30,756 bases of DNA from a virus (IMGVR_UViG_3300031839_000325:1-30756); one strand, 5' to 3'; shown: positions 20,594 through 27,187, counted from the stretch's first letter. Notes: generated from the letters alone by a model not told the origin. Program-made: numbers and translations.

Positions 20594-21049
20594 ATGACTA
20601 AGCAAGTAAAAGTAAATGGGTTTGCCAAGGACATCTCGTCTAAGCTTCCAATGGATAATAACACAACAAAATCAAGTGTAAGATACTTCTTGAACAAGTT
20701 CATAGATGACTGCGAATACAACATCAAACAAAAGCACAAACAACTTGCAGACATTCACGCTCAAGCTCAAGAGGTAATGTCAGGCAACATCGTAGACGAA
20801 CACGAACACGCTGATTCAGGCAAAGTTCGGATCCGTTCAGGTAGCTCAACTGAGGTTGTCGGTGCACCGCACTACGATGAAGACAGATTAATCAAGCTTC
20901 AGCGTGATGCAGAATGGAACGAGTTCCAGATCGGCATCGCGGAAGACATGAAACAGATGCTAACGGAAACATTGGATGCTGTAATCCCTGAGGAAGTAAA
21001 GCCCAAGGCAGCAGAAGGTGCCTTGTCCTACTTCCAGAAGCGAGCATAA
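20594..21049 (+). CDS. Early protein of unknown function
   Basis: 151 residues from the ATG at 20594, chosen because AAGGAGAAC lies 5-13 nt upstream; an earlier in-frame codon at 20522 has no ribosome site. The protein is hydrophilic and mostly helical with a central acidic/His stretch (NIVDEHEHADSGKVRIRSGS) and a C-terminal amphipathic region. No family recognised. As the first gene of the rightward unit, followed at once by a strong terminator, it is probably transcribed on its own early and abundantly. Confidence 0.75.
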   Translation: MTKQVKVNGFAKDISSKLPMDNNTTKSSVRYFLNKFIDDCEYNIKQKHKQLADIHAQAQEVMSGNIVDEHEHADSGKVRIRSGSSTEVVGAPHYDEDRLIKLQRDAEWNEFQIGIAEDMKQMLTETLDAVIPEEVKPKAAEGALSYFQKRA

Positions 21050-21062
21050 CTCCCACCAACGA

Positions 21063-21090
21063 GCCTCGCAGCTTCGGCTGCGGGGCTTTT
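21063..21090 (+). terminator. Rho-independent terminator
   Basis: A stem of GCCTCGCAGC and GCTGCGGGGC (one T-G pair) around a TTCG loop is followed by TTTTCTT. It lies 13 bp after the stop of the 151-residue gene and ends that transcript. Confidence 0.88.
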
Positions 21091-21181: not shown

Positions 21182-21211
21182 TTGGCAAGCAAAAATTACT
21201 TGCAATTTAAA
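21182..21211 (+). promoter_or_regulatory. Candidate early promoter upstream of the small membrane-protein gene
   Basis: TTGGCA (21182-21187, 5 of 6) and TTTAAA (21206-21211, 4 of 6) at 18-bp spacing in an AT-rich stretch. A start near 21218 would put the palindrome at 21219-21234 exactly at the transcription start. It follows a terminator, so a new promoter is needed here. Confidence 0.45.
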
Positions 21212-21218
21212 TTTAATC

Positions 21219-21234
21219 ACTGCATCATTGCAGT
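21219..21234. promoter_or_regulatory. Operator-like palindrome, copy 1
   Basis: ACTGCA-TCAT-TGCAGT is a perfect inverted repeat with 6-bp arms and a 4-bp centre. It directly precedes the Shine-Dalgarno AAGGAGG of the gene at 21247. Related palindromes with the same arm and centre lengths occur at 23461-23476 and 25407-25422. Confidence 0.72.
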
Positions 21235-21246
21235 AAGGAGGACGAA

Positions 21247-21399
21247 ATGATTAGCAATTTACTTCTAGGAATCGGATTCATGTTGCTAATACTAGCATCT
21301 GCACTCGATCCACAGACTGAATCAGCAATCTGGATTCATGTCTCACTACTATTCTTTGCATCATTCGTGATGCTGTCTGGCGTAGTATTGCGCCGCTAA
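21247..21399 (+). CDS. Small membrane protein, two hydrophobic segments
   Basis: A 50-residue protein preceded by AAGGAGG. It has a hydrophobic N-terminal segment (MISNLLLGIGFMLLILASAL) and a second from about residue 29 to 48 (WIHVSLLFFASFVMLSGVVL), separated by a short polar loop DPQTESA, and it ends RR. This predicts a two-helix inner-membrane protein. Function unknown; candidates are superinfection exclusion or interference with the host membrane. It is the first gene after the operator-like palindrome at 21219, so it is probably regulated early. Confidence 0.72.
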   Translation: MISNLLLGIGFMLLILASALDPQTESAIWIHVSLLFFASFVMLSGVVLRR

Positions 21400-21424
21400 T
21401 CCATCATCAAAGGAGAACCAAAAA

Positions 21425-21820
21425 ATGATTGGATATAAAATCGATGCCTTCAATGAGACAATCACCGAGGTAGAATACAATGGTGATTACACTCAGATCT
21501 ATCCTCATCTCAATGGCGCAAGAGCATTTGATGTAGCTAGACTATATGCAAATCATGACGTTGCATATGTAGATGACGAAGGATTATACCGAGAGAACCA
21601 AAGCTTCTGGGTGCATAGGAATTACATGCAGCCACTAGCAGGAGATGCATTGATCCTTGGCACTGATGAGGAAGGCGAAAGCATCTCACCCAAAACTACA
21701 ATCGAACAGCTAAGAAATGACATCGTGTTTATCGGTGACAGATTCATGCTGCAAATGTTTTACAAACTAAATGGTGACGTTGAAGACATCACACCATTCT
21801 TTTTTAAGGAGACCGCGTAA
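21425..21820 (+). CDS. Early protein with DUF3846-like features, unknown function
   Basis: A 131-residue acidic protein. A strand-rich start (MIGYKIDAFNETITEVEYNG), then 'IYPHLNGARAFDVARLYAN' and 'QPLAGDALILGTDEEGESIS' recall small phage proteins annotated with DUF3846; this is recall only. No catalytic motif. The ribosome site GGAGAACCA lies 4 nt before the ATG. Confidence 0.62.
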   Translation: MIGYKIDAFNETITEVEYNGDYTQIYPHLNGARAFDVARLYANHDVAYVDDEGLYRENQSFWVHRNYMQPLAGDALILGTDEEGESISPKTTIEQLRNDIVFIGDRFMLQMFYKLNGDVEDITPFFFKETA

Positions 21821-21830
21821 GGAGAACCAA

Positions 21831-22055
21831 ATGACAAAATCAACACACACAATCAAACGCATTGAGAGATTAAAAAACTCTTACGCTGGCAATCCAGCGT
21901 TTAAGTTTACGTTTGATGGAGGTCTTACCCTTCGTACTAAAGCAAACATCTCTGATGCCTACAAAGTATCAGGTGGTTGGGAAGGCAAGCGAGTAGAAAT
22001 TGAAACTGAAACCACGCCATATGGTAAAACATTTATCATTGGCATCAACGAGTAA
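21831..22055 (+). CDS. Small early protein of unknown function
   Basis: 74 residues from ATG 21831, chosen for the GGAGAACCA site ending one base upstream; an in-frame codon at 21771 lies within the previous gene and lacks a site. A helix with basic residues (STHTIKRIERLKNSY) is followed by beta-rich text (FKFTFDGGLTLRTKANISDA, then GKRVEIETE). It may be a small nucleic-acid binding or inhibitor protein. No family recognised. Confidence 0.62.
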   Translation: MTKSTHTIKRIERLKNSYAGNPAFKFTFDGGLTLRTKANISDAYKVSGGWEGKRVEIETETTPYGKTFIIGINE

Positions 22056-22066
22056 CGGAGAACCAA

Positions 22067-22276
22067 ATGAAAATCTCATTCATCAATCAAGTAACAGAGG
22101 CATCACGCCTAGTTAATGCAATCTATGATCGCGCTCACGATGAGGGATCAGAGTTCAAGTCTACAATCCAGCAAGCTAAGTGGGCATTGGATAAGATCAG
22201 AGACACCTATGACGAGGTGCTTGAACGTGACGCAACTGAAGACTCTAGCTACAGACCACTCAAGGAGATCAAGTAA
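22067..22276 (+). CDS. Small early protein of unknown function, helical
   Basis: A 69-residue, mostly helical acidic protein (SRLVNAIYDRAHDEGSEF, then AKWALDKIRDTYDEVLERDA). GGAGAACCA lies just upstream. The stop overlaps the next start (TAATG at 22274-22278). Function unknown. Confidence 0.62.
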   Translation: MKISFINQVTEASRLVNAIYDRAHDEGSEFKSTIQQAKWALDKIRDTYDEVLERDATEDSSYRPLKEIK

Positions 22277-22455
22277 TGTCTGAAGGTATCAATGTGTTTG
22301 AGTTTGATAGCGAAACAGCCAAGCCACAATTAGATATGGATTGGGTGCAAGCTATCTCAACAATCGAGTTAGTCGTTCAAGATTATATTTACCAACACCC
22401 AACAGCAGAAGAACATATCTCTGCAGCTTGGGCAACTGTACTGAAGGGAGTTTAA
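22276..22455 (+). CDS. Small acidic early protein of unknown function
   Basis: A 59-residue protein (MSEGINVFEFDSETAKPQLD at the start; 'VQAISTIELVVQDYIYQ' in a helix). The ATG overlaps the previous stop, the stop lies 1 bp before the next ATG, and a purine-rich GAAGGGAG near its end serves the next gene. Tight packing supports it as translated. No family recognised. Confidence 0.65.
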   Translation: MSEGINVFEFDSETAKPQLDMDWVQAISTIELVVQDYIYQHPTAEEHISAAWATVLKGV

Positions 22456-22456
22456 C

Positions 22457-22663
22457 ATGGCACTCATGCAACAGCGTCACTTTGAATTTATCGCTAGGAA
22501 TATTGCGCCAACATATCCTTGGCCTACCTACATTCTCACATTGGCAGACGAACTAGCTGCAACCAATCCTAAATTTAATCGGGATAAATTTATCAAGGTT
22601 GCAACCAAAGCTTGGGAAGATGCACACCCACCGGAGGATATCGATGACTCAATCCCATACTAA
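22457..22663 (+). CDS. Small early protein of unknown function
   Basis: A 68-residue protein with 'RHFEFIARNIAPTYPWPTYI' followed by a helical region ending 'KVATKAWEDAHPPEDIDD'. Ribosome site GAAGGGAG, 8 nt before ATG. Its end contains the Shine-Dalgarno of the next gene (GGAGGATATCG), so the two overlap by 20 nt. Function unknown. Confidence 0.65.
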   Translation: MALMQQRHFEFIARNIAPTYPWPTYILTLADELAATNPKFNRDKFIKVATKAWEDAHPPEDIDDSIPY

Positions 22664-22865
22664 GACAGACATTTACGCCATTTACTTTCACCTTAAGTCC
22701 ATGGCAGAAGACAGAGGATCAGCCGATGCCTACTACAATCGGCCTTGGAATCCTCACATGTTTGTAGATGGCAAGCGAGTAACAATAGAATCTCTCACAC
22801 CTCAAGAGATTGTAGACTACACACGCGGCTACAATAATGAGGAAAGCAGAAAGGACTGGGGATAA
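22644..22865 (+). CDS. Small early protein of unknown function
   Basis: 73 residues from ATG 22644, chosen because GGAGG lies 7 nt upstream. 'DIYAIYFHLKSMAEDRGSAD' is helical, and 'HMFVDGKRVTIESLTPQEIV' beta/turn. The stop overlaps the next ATG (ATAATG at 22863). No family recognised. Confidence 0.62.
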   Translation: MTQSHTKTDIYAIYFHLKSMAEDRGSADAYYNRPWNPHMFVDGKRVTIESLTPQEIVDYTRGYNNEESRKDWG

Positions 22866-23203
22866 TGCAAGATCTATTTGATGTGCAAGTAAACACAATG
22901 CACCACAAGAACGCAGTAGACACAGAGGTAGCAGCCGCTGAGTCTATTGCGCCTCGAGTTACTGGGCTGCGGCTTGCTGTATTACAAGAGCTTTACAAAG
23001 CCTACAGGTTTGGCTTTACTGGTGAGCAAGTATCAAACAACACAGGCGAATGGCTTTACTCTGTCAAGCCAAGGATCACTGAGCTTGTACGCATTGGAAT
23101 GGTTGAAGACTCAGGTGATCGTGTTAAGAACTCACGCAACAGAAACGAAGTAGTCTGGCGTATAACAGATAAAGGAAAGGAGTTTATCGATGCAAGGGAT
23201 TAA
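22865..23203 (+). CDS. Winged helix-turn-helix DNA-binding protein
   Basis: 112 residues. After a variable N-terminus (about 30 residues), 'LRLAVLQELYKAYRFGFTGE' followed by 'QVSNNTGEWLYSVKPRITEL' and then 'VRIGMVEDSGDRVKNSR' with a final strand 'NEVVWRITDKG' is a canonical winged helix: H1, recognition helix pair and wing. Such proteins are frequent in phage early regions and resemble MarR-like or replication-accessory wHTH proteins. The partner DNA is unknown. It could be a regulator of the early region. Confidence 0.68.
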   Translation: MQDLFDVQVNTMHHKNAVDTEVAAAESIAPRVTGLRLAVLQELYKAYRFGFTGEQVSNNTGEWLYSVKPRITELVRIGMVEDSGDRVKNSRNRNEVVWRITDKGKEFIDARD

Positions 23204-23447
23204 GAGCATCAAGTATGTCAATGGCAAAAAGTATGAATACATTCGACACGCAACCTCTGCTGCTATTGAATCATACGATAGGCAAGAACGTGAACGCATG
23301 AAAGAACAATGCCGCAAAGCCAGCGAGTTAATACCAGCTAATGCATTTGCTGATGATGTTATTGATGATGACGTTGGCGTTTACTATTCCAAGCCAACTG
23401 ATGTCATTGGTCTTAGCACTCTTGGCCTACACTCATCAGAAAATTAG
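23190..23447 (+). CDS. Small early protein of unknown function, acidic C-terminus
   Basis: An 85-residue protein: a basic N-terminal half (IKSIKYVNGKKYEYIRHATS, then a helix DRQERERMKEQCRKA) and an acidic part (NAFADDVIDDDVGVYYSKP). It overlaps the previous gene by 14 nt and uses an AAAGGAG site 8 nt upstream of ATG. Located just before the promoter of the HTH gene. Function unknown. Confidence 0.62.
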   Translation: MQGIKSIKYVNGKKYEYIRHATSAAIESYDRQERERMKEQCRKASELIPANAFADDVIDDDVGVYYSKPTDVIGLSTLGLHSSEN

Positions 23448-23451
23448 CCTG

Positions 23452-23480
23452 TTGACAACCACTGCATCTGTGCAGATTAT
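23452..23480 (+). promoter_or_regulatory. Sigma70-like promoter of the HTH gene
   Basis: Perfect -35 TTGACA (23452-23457), a 17-bp spacer, and GATTAT (23475-23480, 4 of 6). A palindrome fills most of the spacer. Expected start about 23487, the A of the ATG, so the transcript would be leaderless or nearly so. Confidence 0.68.
23461..23476. promoter_or_regulatory. Operator-like palindrome, copy 2
   Basis: ACTGCA-TCTG-TGCAGA: perfect arms CTGCA/TGCAG and the same 16-bp layout as copies 1 and 3. It lies between the -35 and -10 boxes, where a bound repressor would block RNA polymerase. Confidence 0.7.
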
Positions 23481-23486
23481 GTGACC

Positions 23487-23690
23487 ATGCTTAGTTATAT
23501 GGACACATTAAAAGAACAATCAGCATGTGCAAAGGTCGATCTAAAGAAAGCCTTTGTATATGCTGGCGTTCCTGACTCAACCTTTTACCGCGCAAAGATG
23601 GGTAAGAACTTGAGGCACAGCACAGCTTGCAAAGTGGAAAAGGCTATTGAAAAACTTTCAGCACTTCAAGAAAGAAACACCTGTTCCTGA
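23487..23690 (+). CDS. Short helix-turn-helix regulator, probable repressor of the early region
   Basis: 67 residues from ATG 23487. A GTG at 23481 is upstream of the expected transcription start, and an ATG at 23499 is another possibility; none has a Shine-Dalgarno. The sequence 'CAKVDLKKAFVYAGVPDSTF' followed by 'YRAKMGKNLRHSTACKVEKA' has the Cro/CI-like pattern: helix 2, turn (AGVPDST), recognition helix and a third helix. It is small, like Cro-type proteins. The operator-like palindrome in its own promoter and in two other early promoters makes it the natural candidate for binding that sequence. The XRE protein encoded next at 23701 is a competing candidate. Confidence 0.66.
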   Translation: MLSYMDTLKEQSACAKVDLKKAFVYAGVPDSTFYRAKMGKNLRHSTACKVEKAIEKLSALQERNTCS

Positions 23691-23700
23691 CACTTACGAG

Positions 23701-23901
23701 ATGATAATCTATCAGCTTGTACAAGAACGCAACAATCAAAAGATTAGTCAAGAAGAACTGGCTCATCGTATTGGCTGTGCTAAATCTTTAATTCACAAAT
23801 GGGAACAGTACAAGAGAGTGCCAAGCGGGTTTCTCTTTTCGTGCTGGCTGGATGCACTTGGCTGTCAGATCAAGATCACGAAGAAAAATATTAAGCGATA
23901 G
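23701..23901 (+). CDS. XRE-family (Cro/CI-type) helix-turn-helix protein
   Basis: 66 residues from ATG 23701. An upstream TTG at 23647 would extend it into the previous gene. 'LVQERNNQKISQEELAHRIG' followed by 'CAKSLIHKWEQYKRVPSGF' is a clear XRE HTH with the S-Q-E-E-L-A-x-R-I-G helix, turn and recognition helix. The rest is short, so it is one domain without dimer or cleavage modules. It is placed directly after the first HTH gene, 10 bp away, suggesting a two-gene regulator cassette. Weak ribosome site (TACGAG). Confidence 0.74.
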   Translation: MIIYQLVQERNNQKISQEELAHRIGCAKSLIHKWEQYKRVPSGFLFSCWLDALGCQIKITKKNIKR

Positions 23902-24024
23902 GTCTGGCAGACCACAAACATGCGAAGCATGTGCAGTAAGTACACCATACTTTGTTGCAGTACTTGCATCTATAGAACCAGTGGCGCATTATATAATCTG
24001 TGTCGATTGCTATGAGAGGGAAAC

Positions 24025-24351
24025 ATGGCAAACAAAAATCGTAATAAAGGAAACTACCACGAGAAGTGGTTCGTTGACTGGCTCAAGAAGCTCGGCTTCC
24101 AAGCGAAACGCCAGCCCCTCTCGGGCAGCTTGGGAGGCGAGTATCGAGGCGACATCATCTGGGAGTTCGGGGGAGAACGACTGGTAGTTGAAGTCAAGTA
24201 CCGTGACAAGTCAAGCTTTCCCAATCCCTTCACAATAATGGAGGGCCGTGACGCAGCCCTATATAAGCGGAGACACGGCACTCCAAAAACCCTAGTCATA
24301 TTTGATGGTGATTTCTTTGAAGAAAGGATAGCACCACTCATCAAAAAATAA
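24025..24351 (+). CDS. PD-(D/E)XK nuclease, Holliday-junction-resolvase-like
   Basis: 108 residues. 'NKGNYHEKWFVDWLKKLGF' with Glu13, 'GGEYRGDIIW' with Asp43, and 'LVVEVKYRDK' with Glu56 and Lys58 give the nuclease triad E...D-x12-ExK, typical of VRR/Hjc-like or T7 gp3-type resolvases. 'QPLSGSLGGEY' resembles the S-G-S/x-x-G loop of Hjc-like enzymes. Likely role: resolution of branched replication or recombination intermediates before packaging. Ribosome site GAGAGGG, 6 nt before ATG. Confidence 0.8.
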   Translation: MANKNRNKGNYHEKWFVDWLKKLGFQAKRQPLSGSLGGEYRGDIIWEFGGERLVVEVKYRDKSSFPNPFTIMEGRDAALYKRRHGTPKTLVIFDGDFFEERIAPLIKK

Positions 24352-24361
24352 GGAGAACCAC

Positions 24362-24988
24362 ATGGCATTTGTTGCAATGGCAAAGGCTATACAAACAGAC
24401 ATTCCAGATCCACTAGCCAAGTGGCTGCTTGTCGTGCTTGCAGATCATGCTGATGAAGATAGACTACAGTGCTGGCCTAGCATAGACAGGCTAGTGCAGC
24501 GCACAGGTATGAGCAGGGCAACTGTAGCTAGAAAACTAAATGATCTTGAGCAATCAGGAATTATACACAGAGACAAAGGCAACTCACAAAGGTCTACGCT
24601 CTATACCCTTTTGTCTCTTAGAGAGATAGTCTCACACAGAGACGAGGTAGTCTCAGACAGAGACCCTAACCTATCAAAGAAACTATCAACTAAGAAAAGA
24701 GGGGCAGTGCCTGAGAATTGGAAACCATCTGATGAGTTGATTGAATCTATAAATGAATCACTGAAGGAGAACCTTGACCATGAGTATGAAACACCTAGCT
24801 TCTGCGATTACCATCAGTCCAAAGGCAACGTCTTTGCCAGCATCGACAAAGCCTACCGGAACTGGTGTAGAAATTCAGTTAAGTATAGCCGAGCAAGAAC
24901 AAGCAATAGCACTACTGGTGTCGGCAGCCGATCCACTGGCGGTAGACAAAAGGCTGATTACTTCGCTGGAATTATTGACGGGCTTTAG
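24362..24988 (+). CDS. Replication initiator, lambda O-like (N-terminal winged helix, internal origin candidate)
   Basis: 208 residues. Residues about 10-80 form a winged helix ('LAKWLLVVLADHADEDRLQC', 'WPSIDRLVQRTGMSRATVAR', then 'KLNDLEQSGIIHRDKG'), the origin-binding domain type of phage O-like initiators. The end, 'SFCDYHQSKGNVFASIDKAY' plus 'RNWCRN' (147-171), is the usual C-terminal motif of such proteins. The linker (90-115) is encoded by iteron-like repeats (24613-24664). GGAGAACCA and ATG are one base apart. It precedes a possible loader gene and the recombination genes, like lambda O and P. The final part (172-208) is low complexity and overlaps the next gene. Confidence 0.78.
   Translation: MAFVAMAKAIQTDIPDPLAKWLLVVLADHADEDRLQCWPSIDRLVQRTGMSRATVARKLNDLEQSGIIHRDKGNSQRSTLYTLLSLREIVSHRDEVVSDRDPNLSKKLSTKKRGAVPENWKPSDELIESINESLKENLDHEYETPSFCDYHQSKGNVFASIDKAYRNWCRNSVKYSRARTSNSTTGVGSRSTGGRQKADYFAGIIDGL
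24613..24664. repeat. Three iteron-like repeats in the initiator gene, candidate replication origin
   Basis: GTCTC-N5-GAGAC occurs at 24629-24643 and 24650-24664, with a close third copy at 24613-24627 (GTCTC-TTAGA-GAGAT). Longer shared text is TAGTCTCAnACAGAGAC in copies 2 and 3, spaced by 21 bp. A/T-rich, purine-biased DNA with the direct repeat CTATCAA follows (24671-24699). Lambda has the same arrangement: iterons then an A-rich segment inside gene O. Confidence 0.62.
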
Positions 24989-25415
24989 AGTCGAGCCTAT
25001 CCAGCGCACACGCTATCTCAAAGACGAGACTGTAGACATACAGCTACAAGGATACAAGATCCGCTGTGATGACAAGGACAAGTGCATCCAAGCTATCAAG
25101 AAGATCAAGCAGTCGCTCACCCCACTGCCAGCGGAAGAGATCGCGCAACGCCTCACCGTGTTGGCTGCGCTGGTGGTGAAGCCAACAGGTGAGTCGTCTT
25201 CCGATCATAAGATCAGGATAAAAGCAATCACATCTCAGCTTGTCTCATTCCCTGCCGACATAGTTATCAGAGCGATTGATAATGTTGGGAAGGCAACAAC
25301 CTTCTGGCCTGCCTATGCAGAGTTTCATAAGCACATCGAATACAAACTCAAGACTAGGTACAAATTACTAGAAGCATTTGAAAAACAACTATTAACCCTT
25401 GACCATACTGCGTAG
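24780..25415 (+). CDS. Possible replication partner / helicase-loader-type protein
   Basis: 211 residues from the ATG at 24780; GGAGAACC lies 6-13 nt upstream, inside the initiator gene. The first ~35 residues (SAITISPKATSLPASTKPTG) are low complexity. The middle contains 'LVSAADPLAVDKRLITSLEL' and the end contains the 'VIRAIDNVGKATTFWPAYAE' type motif (x-W-P-x-x-A-E-F/L) often found in phage loader-like or P-like proteins. The remainder is helical. Position right after the O-like gene supports a lambda P analogue, but no ATPase or defined domain is visible. It overlaps the initiator by 209 nt, which is unusually long. Confidence 0.55.
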   Translation: MSMKHLASAITISPKATSLPASTKPTGTGVEIQLSIAEQEQAIALLVSAADPLAVDKRLITSLELLTGFRVEPIQRTRYLKDETVDIQLQGYKIRCDDKDKCIQAIKKIKQSLTPLPAEEIAQRLTVLAALVVKPTGESSSDHKIRIKAITSQLVSFPADIVIRAIDNVGKATTFWPAYAEFHKHIEYKLKTRYKLLEAFEKQLLTLDHTA

Positions 25416-25427
25416 TTGCAGTATAAA
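25399..25427 (+). promoter_or_regulatory. Sigma70-like promoter of the exonuclease operon
   Basis: TTGACC (25399-25404, 5 of 6), 17-bp spacer, TATAAA (25422-25427, 5 of 6). Start would be near 25434, just before the Shine-Dalgarno, giving a very short leader. The spacer is filled by an operator-like palindrome. Confidence 0.7.
25407..25422. promoter_or_regulatory. Operator-like palindrome, copy 3
   Basis: ACTGCG-TAGT-TGCAGT, flanked so that ATACTGC and GCAGTAT form a 7-bp inverted repeat with a 6-bp centre. It overlaps the spacer and the first base of the -10 box. Confidence 0.72.
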
Positions 25428-25445: not shown

Positions 25446-26234
25446 ATGGAACGCAAGGGATTTATCGGCGGCTCTGATATGCGCCGCATTATGGATGGTC
25501 AATGGGTAGACCTATGGGAAGAGAAGCTTGGGCTTGTCGAATCAGAAGATCTATCTGACAATCTAGCTGTGCAGCTAGGCACACACACTGAAGACTTCAA
25601 TATCAAATGGTTTGAGAAGAACTTCAAGACAATCACAGGTAATCATCAGCAAGAATATCGTATGCAGTACGAAAGCGTACCACTCAAGGCTACTGTTGAT
25701 GGTGTAACCAACGATGGCACAGCCGTTGTAGAGTGCAAGCATACCTATGAGCGCAACACAATGGAGGGTTGCCTCAAGATGTACATGCCTCAGATACAAT
25801 TCTATCTATGGGTATCAGTGCATGATGGCTGTTATCTATCTGTAATCTTTGGCAATCGCAGATGGGAATGTGTCTATGTCCAAAAGGATTGGGACTACAT
25901 CAAGAAGATGCAAGTCATGGTCAAAGAGTTTTGGAAGTGTGTACAGGATAACACACGCCCTTTCGGTGACAACCTTGCGGAGCCAGTAAGCATCGACAAG
26001 ATCAAGGTCGATGGTCTGGTACGCAGGGATGCATCATCTGACAACGAGTTTATCTCACGCTGCCATGACTACATACAGCATGAAACCAATGCAAAACTAT
26101 TCGAGTCTGCCAAGTCTGATCTCAAGGCAATGGTAGGCGATGATGAGAGGGAAGTATACTGTGACCTTCTCTCTATCAAGCGCGACAAGCGCGGCTCACT
26201 TCGCGTCACAGTAAAGGAGAACCAGAATGTCTGA
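25446..26234 (+). CDS. Lambda-type 5'-3' exonuclease (YqaJ-like recombinase)
   Basis: 262 residues from ATG 25446, chosen for GGAGAACCA just upstream. 'FIGGSDMRRIM' at the N-terminus, 'LGTHTED' (44-50, Glu49), 'PLKATVDG' with Asp85, 'VVECKHT' with Glu96 and Lys98, and 'PQIQFYLW' (115-122) make the complete nuclease core of the lambda-exo/YqaJ family. It degrades one strand from double-stranded ends and hands it to an annealing protein. The next gene encodes that partner and overlaps the stop by 8 nt, like lambda red. Its promoter carries operator copy 3. Confidence 0.86.
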   Translation: MERKGFIGGSDMRRIMDGQWVDLWEEKLGLVESEDLSDNLAVQLGTHTEDFNIKWFEKNFKTITGNHQQEYRMQYESVPLKATVDGVTNDGTAVVECKHTYERNTMEGCLKMYMPQIQFYLWVSVHDGCYLSVIFGNRRWECVYVQKDWDYIKKMQVMVKEFWKCVQDNTRPFGDNLAEPVSIDKIKVDGLVRRDASSDNEFISRCHDYIQHETNAKLFESAKSDLKAMVGDDEREVYCDLLSIKRDKRGSLRVTVKENQNV

Positions 26235-26679
26235 CAATCTAAAGCTATGGAATACAGTATCCAAATCAGATCCAAAGTATCTCAAGAAGGTATCATTCGG
26301 ATCACGTTCATTCACCGCTATCGATCCTCAGTATCAGGTACGCTGCGCCACAGAACAGTTCGGCCCAGTCGGTCAAGGCTGGGGATGGAAGAACAACACA
26401 CGTTTCATCGATGTATCCAATGGAGACACCGCAGTCATTGCCGATGTCACTATCTGGATTGGCTCTGATGAGTATTGCTTCGGCCCCTTCTCTGGTTGCC
26501 GCAAGTTCTTCGATGCAGCCAAGGGTCGCATGGCAGAAGATGCACCCAAGATGGCAATCACTGACGGTCTTACCAAGGCTCTATCACACCTAGGATTCAA
26601 CGCAGATGTATTCCTTGGGGAGATGGACGGTAACAAGTATGCCGCAGATAGCTCTAAAAAAGGCGGTGAGGGGTGGTAA
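26227..26679 (+). CDS. Single-strand annealing protein (Rad52/Sak-like)
   Basis: 150 residues. 'LKKVSFGSRSFTAIDPQYQV' then 'CATEQFGPVGQGWGWK' and later 'APKMAITDGLTKALSHLGFN' followed by ADVFLGEMDGNKY match a phage annealing-protein type (I recall it as Rad52/Sak-like, from memory only). Partner: the exonuclease encoded upstream. Ribosome site GGAGAACCAGA before ATG, inside the previous gene. This is the expected exo-annealase pair, which also supports circularisation or concatemer formation. Confidence 0.72.
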   Translation: MSDNLKLWNTVSKSDPKYLKKVSFGSRSFTAIDPQYQVRCATEQFGPVGQGWGWKNNTRFIDVSNGDTAVIADVTIWIGSDEYCFGPFSGCRKFFDAAKGRMAEDAPKMAITDGLTKALSHLGFNADVFLGEMDGNKYAADSSKKGGEGW

Positions 26680-26734: not shown

Positions 26735-27115
26735 ATGAGCGATTACGACAATACTAATAAGGGCGCAGCCTTTAAACCCTTCCCAGAAATGGCTATGATT
26801 CTGCAAGGTAAGGTAGATAACAATGGCAACAATGAAGATCTGGTTCTTGTCAAGACCACATCAAAAGATGGTACGCCGCGTATTGACCTATACCAAAAGG
26901 TTGGTGCATTATTCGAGAACGATAAGGGCGACAACCAGAACAAGCCAGACTACACTGGCCCTTACCAAGACAACTTACGCATAGCCGCATGGCGTAGAAC
27001 AAAGGATGGGTCTGCCTACATGTCCTTTGAACTATCGGAGAAAACAAATGGTGCAGCGCAGCCGAAAGAAGATCCGCTGGTCAAGATCCTAGATGGAGAT
27101 GATGTACCGTTCTAA
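26735..27115 (+). CDS. SSB-like single-stranded-DNA-binding protein (DUF736-like)
   Basis: 126 residues. Near the N-terminus 'DNTNKGAAFK' and later 'PDYTGPYQDNLRIAAWRRTK' and 'KDGSAYMSFELSEK' resemble DUF736-type OB-fold proteins. The C-terminus LDGDDVPF copies the acidic SSB tip (DDxPF) that recruits host replication proteins. These two features together make an SSB role likely. Shine-Dalgarno AGGAGG upstream. It follows exonuclease and annealing protein in the same direction. Confidence 0.74.
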   Translation: MSDYDNTNKGAAFKPFPEMAMILQGKVDNNGNNEDLVLVKTTSKDGTPRIDLYQKVGALFENDKGDNQNKPDYTGPYQDNLRIAAWRRTKDGSAYMSFELSEKTNGAAQPKEDPLVKILDGDDVPF

Positions 27116-27154: not shown

Positions 27155-27187
27155 GAGGCAGATCTACTCTACAGGTCTGCCTCTTTT
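27155..27187 (+). terminator. Rho-independent terminator after the SSB-like gene
   Basis: GAGGCAGA (27155-27162) and TCTGCCTC (27176-27183) form an 8-bp stem followed by TTTT. It lies 40 bp after the SSB-like stop and 14 bp before the zinc-ribbon gene. A second, 7-bp hairpin (TGATGAG/CTCATCA, 27120-27150) precedes it. Confidence 0.8.

Follow-up and report, generated by a model that had tools for sequence, protein, structure and literature searches.

The closest described systems are the Cro proteins of phages 434 and lambda, compact helix-turn-helix (HTH) proteins of about 66 amino acids (aa) that regulate their own genes from a promoter-overlapping site. Their operators form a cluster between the divergent cI and cro genes, and the 434 operator has a half-site spacing of 4+6+4, as do the sites described below. 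The restriction-modification controller (C) proteins and HipB are likewise small autoregulatory HTH repressors. The Cro protein of the telomere phage PY54 is a lytic repressor of high operator specificity, expressed from a strong promoter on an mRNA experimentally shown to be leaderless; its only site in the genome adjoins cI, and its own gene apparently escapes repression (PMC4488713). Here, we describe a putative circuit of the Cro kind in a virus contig of 30,756 nucleotides (nt) from IMG/VR (IMGVR_UViG_3300031839_000325:1-30756; hereafter, the window): three copies of a palindrome of the general form ACTGCA-N4-TGCAGT, each at a predicted early promoter, one of which heads the gene of a 67-aa HTH protein. 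With a probability of about 0.82, on our estimate, this protein is an autoregulated Cro-like repressor acting at the three promoters.

The palindromes occur exactly at the coordinates given for them in an earlier, sequence-only reading of the window: putative operator 1 (ACTGCATCATTGCAGT) at 21219-21234, putative autoregulatory operator 2 (ACTGCATCTGTGCAGA), imperfect in its outer base, at 23461-23476, and putative operator 3 (ACTGCGTAGTTGCAGT) at 25407-25422, with distances of 2.2 kb and 1.9 kb between successive operators. These three are the only matches to ACTGCRNNNNTGCAGW on the plus strand of the window. Copies 2 and 3 fill the 17-base pair (bp) spacers of sigma-70-like promoters, as that reading had claimed. 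Predicted promoter 2 (23452-23480, plus strand) combines TTGACA (23452-23457) with GATTAT (23475-23480), the first two bases of which are shared with the palindrome; predicted promoter 3 (25399-25427, plus strand) combines TTGACC (25399-25404) with TATAAA (25422-25427), one base being shared. In predicted promoter 1 (21200-21228, plus strand), TTGCAA (21200-21205) is followed after 17 bp by a weak -10 box, CATCAT (21223-21228), which is covered by copy 1. In other lineages, the corresponding promoter has the form TTGCAN-N17-TATACT, and the palindrome abuts or overlaps TATACT, close to the transcription start; the placement of copy 1 "at the expected start" of a third promoter was therefore roughly right. 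The promoter-1 element TTGCAA is conserved in near relatives, and it is retained together with palindrome 1 in those whose upstream DNA differs (e.g., L009). Counterparts of promoter 3 in relatives read TTGAAC or TTGATC-N17-TATAAT, and nearly all relatives have TTGAC 5′ of the HTH start.

The window statistics alone are only suggestive, and it is placement and conservation that decide. Three or more CTGC-N6-GCAG occurred in 11 of 200 first-order simulated sequences, which makes three copies mildly unusual, and the motif is not enriched in the window when up to three mismatches are allowed (19 found, 22.05 expected). A scan with the exonuclease yielded 72 loci, the upstream DNA of which was read without prior motif selection: in most of them, down to about 53% exonuclease identity, ACTGC-N6-GCAGT lies between TTGNNN and a -10-like box. 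Three sites per phage are a common finding, also at exonuclease identities near 50%, and several records have the three copies in one order, i.e., 5′ of variable small genes, of the HTH gene and of the exonuclease gene. Across three window excerpts and the loci from the first two scans, CTGC/GCAG pairs 6 bp apart numbered 157, against 3-37 at each other spacing from 0 to 15. Sixteen long relatives gave 47 matches, compared with four for a reversed control pattern. In L092, extra genes are inserted 5′ of the exonuclease and the site remained with the promoter. In the first survey, all 38 distinct HTH-bearing loci had site 3 upstream of the exonuclease, and 34 of them had site 2 at the HTH gene (relaxed pattern); a strict or relaxed site at the own gene or at the YqaJ exonuclease was found in every one of the 92 distinct HTH relatives that could be checked. 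Conservation of the palindromes 5′ of orthologous genes in related phages, the check which the sequence-only reading had set for itself, is thus what we found.

The sites also show variation. At the exonuclease and HTH sites, position 5 is invariably a purine (A or G), with C opposite in a minority. No strict HTH-gene site has an intact outer base pair: the last base of site 2 is A, G or C, never T, in 25 distinct strict copies, probably because it also belongs to the -10 box, while the exonuclease site always ends in T. In some lineages, site 2 is reduced to TGC-N6-GCA. Paired operator-like sites, instead of single ones, occur in the distant relatives L135 (4078-4104 and 6218-6261) and L136 (5916-5942 and 8055-8099), where CTGCATATCTGCAT adjoins TTGCAATGTTGCAT 5′ of the HTH gene and two sites about 30 bp apart precede the exonuclease region. 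In two further relatives (L205:3296 and L228:3462), a conserved GCTGCTTCATAGCAGC some 170 nt 5′ of site 1 matches the strict operator core; these copies look like a stem-loop rather than an operator.

The gene for the 67-aa protein (23487-23690, plus strand) is laid out alike throughout the family: TTGACA, palindrome, -10 box and, 6 nt on, the ATG, with no Shine-Dalgarno sequence. Since the ATG follows the -10 box so closely and lacks a Shine-Dalgarno sequence, the mRNA is predicted to be leaderless, with the ATG at 23487 located at the predicted transcription start. A model built with AlphaFold2 from 22 relatives is a confident four-helix HTH fold (predicted local distance difference test score, pLDDT, 89.4). 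Its matches in the PDB are lambda-repressor-like (HipB, DdrO, controller proteins, 434 Cro), none of them significant (E-values of at least 0.45; template modelling, TM, scores of about 0.5-0.66), and its significant fold matches are to unnamed viral proteins only. The protein itself has no match in Pfam at E-values up to 1 and no convincing match in PHROG and PDB sequence searches, and a tblastn search returned nothing; HTH_3 matches appear in two of its 22 relatives, the best at 0.017. Tested by sequence, it does not fall into the Cro/HTH_3 family. A single profile-pattern scan of bacterial genomes produced only a spurious 16-residue match and no prophage relative.

Which protein would bind the sites is indicated by comparing relatives. 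The sequence-only reading had left two candidates, the 67-aa protein and its XRE neighbour (23701-23901, plus strand; Pfam HTH_3, 1.7e-07 for the open reading frame), and, on the comparisons, the binder is almost certainly the former. In the wider survey, counted over loci in which the DNA 5′ of the exonuclease extends beyond 2.5 kb, 158 loci have both HTH gene and site, 22 the HTH gene without a strict site, 50 neither and two the site only (Fisher p 9e-31, uncorrected for relatedness). Most of the 22 have variant sites at the HTH gene; as for the two site-only loci, L290 encodes a different small HTH protein directly after the site and L173 has a core match only. The sequence of the sites changes along with the protein as well. 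In L205, L208, L228 and L231, the recognition helix reads STTYWR instead of DSTFYR, a Tyr that is invariant in the family alignment (A1) being replaced by Trp, and the sites read approximately ATTGC...GCAAT (CTGC to TTGC); in L205 and L228, this holds for all three places. All four STTYWR-type proteins have T-type sites, and no others, both at their own gene and at the exonuclease; the other 88 proteins have C-type sites at both places in 58 cases, and T-type sites only at both in none.

That the XRE protein binds instead, alone or with the 67-aa protein, has in its favour that it is a recognisable HTH_3 protein of the same operon and usually accompanies the sites. We nevertheless regard it as very improbable: 16 distinct loci lack the XRE gene and all retain both sites, and XRE-bearing lineages without the 67-aa HTH protein are also without sites. 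Thus, XRE and exonuclease genes, but neither the HTH gene nor the sites, are found in Pelagibacter phage EXVC031P Hodr (OQ414635) and in its relatives (the Hodr XRE homologue is 41% identical over 58 residues); for Hodr, 24.8 kb were read, and they gave no operator copy and no relative of the 67-aa protein. Likewise, L230, L241, L244 and L246 form a clade nested within the HTH-bearing phages of the exonuclease tree; this clade has lost the HTH gene and kept the XRE gene, with no CTGC-N6-GCAG upstream. Furthermore, in about nine supported independent pairs that differ in XRE, the site is unchanged in about six. Borrowed control by a host regulator such as LexA is a highly improbable explanation: a recombination operon is among the targets, as it is in SOS regulons, but the sites come and go with the phage gene, include the promoter of that gene and change in step with the recognition helix of its product. 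Least credible is that the palindromes act as RNA hairpins, either attenuators or ribosome-site blockers. Site 1 would fall at the 5′ end of the mRNA, just 5′ of the Shine-Dalgarno sequence, and a terminator-like stem was flagged there on the minus strand; on the other hand, copies 2 and 3, between the -35 and -10 boxes, would remain untranscribed from their own promoters, and the arms are near invariant rather than compensating, with the outer pair broken at the strict HTH-gene sites.

Two further alternatives accept the 67-aa protein as the binder. It could activate like MerR, by remodelling the promoter spacer, for which the position of the sites within the spacers of promoters 2 and 3 would be suited. 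MerR promoters, however, have spacers of 19-20 bp and MerR has a winged-helix fold, while the spacers here have the optimal 17 bp, the model contains helices only, and site 1 overlaps or follows the -10 box, a blocking position. As the boxes are also near consensus in many relatives (the counterparts of promoter 3 given above; TTGACA at the HTH gene), an activator is not needed, and we consider this reading unlikely. Alternatively, the protein could mainly be a CI-like immunity repressor, providing a superinfection block or an episomal carrier state. This is doubtful, if worth keeping in mind: such a repressor would silence all three early promoters, and leaderless mRNA is known for the cI genes of lambda and PY54 (PMC4488713). 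Against it, the integrase, resolvase and ParA families (PF00589, PF00239 and PF13614) were found in none of 17 long records (the window and 16 relatives; their completeness was not classed), which bears out the earlier remark that the phage has no visible integrase; the scan of bacterial genomes described above revealed no relative, and the HTH gene lies inside the early operon that its product would repress. As for its purpose, early shut-off is favoured over immunity.

Several observations weigh against the Cro-like repressor itself. Matches to the sigma-70 consensus in the region are at chance level (13 versus 13.0), so that the promoter calls rest on conservation. Shared ancestry inflates the co-occurrence counts; the exonuclease tree contains only four independent gains or losses of the HTH gene, followed by the site in about three of the four, which is too few for tree-corrected significance in a sign test on independent pairs. 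The switch of helix and site concerns one lineage and is probably one event. Several of the relaxed matches are imperfect, and the relaxed pattern turns up as background in some 5% of 100-bp windows. Finally, L175-L180 keep the HTH gene without a site at the exonuclease; where the region beside the HTH gene was read in these loci, a variant site was present.

The mechanism that we propose is as follows. The half-sites are one helical turn apart, which suggests that a homodimer of the 67-aa protein would bind CTGC-N6-GCAG from a single face of the DNA. At copies 2 and 3, the dimer would sit between the -35 and -10 boxes, and at copy 1 over the -10 box or the start, so as to block host sigma-70 RNA polymerase at the three promoters. 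We infer direct binding and repression, as well as operon boundaries and timing, along these lines: the targets would be (1) variable small early genes, (2) the HTH, XRE, resolvase and replication initiator genes, and (3) the exonuclease, annealing and single-strand DNA-binding protein genes. All three promoters would be active early in infection, after which the accumulating protein would turn down the early region and, finally, its own gene, shut off last as its own site is the least perfect. The repressor circuit suggested by the sequence-only reading is supported, with two refinements. First, it is predicted to be autoregulatory, given the HTH start codon at the predicted transcription start. 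Second, the "small early regulon" of that reading is probably not small, since most plus-strand early genes between 21247 and about 27.1 kb lie behind the three promoters.

Compared with the described systems, the circuit shares with 434 and lambda Cro the size of a compact HTH protein and autoregulation from a promoter-overlapping site, operator 2 and its counterparts in relatives overlapping the predicted promoter of the proposed repressor. The window protein has a weak fold similarity to 434 Cro (2cro, TM 0.62), and, on this evidence, it would work like Cro. Unlike 434 and lambda Cro, it has no sequence family match, no integrase was found, and its gene, predicted to be leaderless and autoregulated, lies inside the early operon. 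Here, a single operator is present at each of three dispersed promoters; a lambda-type immunity region, with divergent cI and cro and clustered operators, was not found, both regulator genes being on the plus strand. The predicted leaderless mRNA recalls PY54 cro, from which the circuit differs by three sites that include its own promoter. Controller proteins and HipB are among the best, albeit insignificant, fold matches (HipB, E 0.45); unlike for these, no restriction-modification or toxin gene was recognised alongside the HTH gene.

In the window (30.8 kb), the minus strand carries the structural genes (terminase, head-tail adaptor, major head protein, tail and internal virion proteins), and the early genes occupy about 20.6-27.1 kb of the plus strand. 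Among isolates, the closest one found is Hodr (66% identity for the terminase, 53% for the capsid and 37% for the exonuclease), related in its structural genes and XRE-like domain; its host is Pelagibacter, but the GC content of the window is 43%. A DNA-level search of the phage collection gave no matches, and a literature search, short of most subscription journals, gave no description of the circuit or of Hodr. Strong terminator-like hairpins at 21061-21088 and 27155-27183 flank the early region under the three promoters; 20594-21049, ahead of the first hairpin, is outside that region. The ribosome-site string AAGGAGAAC(C/T) is found directly 5′ of many early start codons (approximately 20581, 21413, 21820, 24351 and 25435); the HTH gene is without it.

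The first gene after operator 1 (21247-21399, plus strand) encodes a predicted membrane protein of 50 aa. In L013, L034, L053, L066 and L080, this gene varies (small membrane proteins, others) behind a constant operator and promoter; the position is possibly a slot for accessory genes. Downstream of the HTH and XRE genes, operon 2 includes genes on the plus strand for a Hjc/RusA-like resolvase (24025-24351) and an O-like replication initiator (24362-24988; phrog_1032, 3.1e-28). A zinc-ribbon-like open reading frame (C-x2-C...C-x2-C; 23852-24187) shares about 160 nt, in another frame, with the start of the resolvase gene at 24025; this overlap recurs in most relatives examined. Within the initiator gene, 24565-24664 contains repeated ACACAGAGAC-type units, two of them 21-bp copies arranged in tandem (24623 and 24644), a placement resembling that of the origin iterons within lambda O. 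Operon 3, also on the plus strand, begins with a YqaJ/RecE-like exonuclease gene (25446-26234; PF09588, 7.7e-10; phrog_434, 8.2e-30), followed by genes for the exonuclease's likely single-strand DNA-annealing partner (26227-26679; phrog_7838, 3.9e-38, PHROG label "exonuclease"), a role that its position suggests, and for a likely single-strand DNA-binding protein (26735-27115; weak match to phrog_18154, 7.4e-4).

The carriers of the proposed circuit are a family of uncultured aquatic phages. On a less likely reading, the proposed repressors would form a separate family of small repressors, unrelated in sequence to the curated HTH families, by which aquatic podoviruses without an integrase would establish a carrier state or superinfection immunity, and whose specificity would have changed together with all dispersed operators at least once. 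For a large group of such phages, whose regulators are unannotated, the finding provides a transcriptional circuit that can be put to the test; it also provides a natural series for the study of protein-DNA recognition, with about 90 distinct repressors and their sites, one coordinated change of specificity and one natural deletion. It also raises the question of why an early-gene repressor is kept in a phage without sign of lysogeny.

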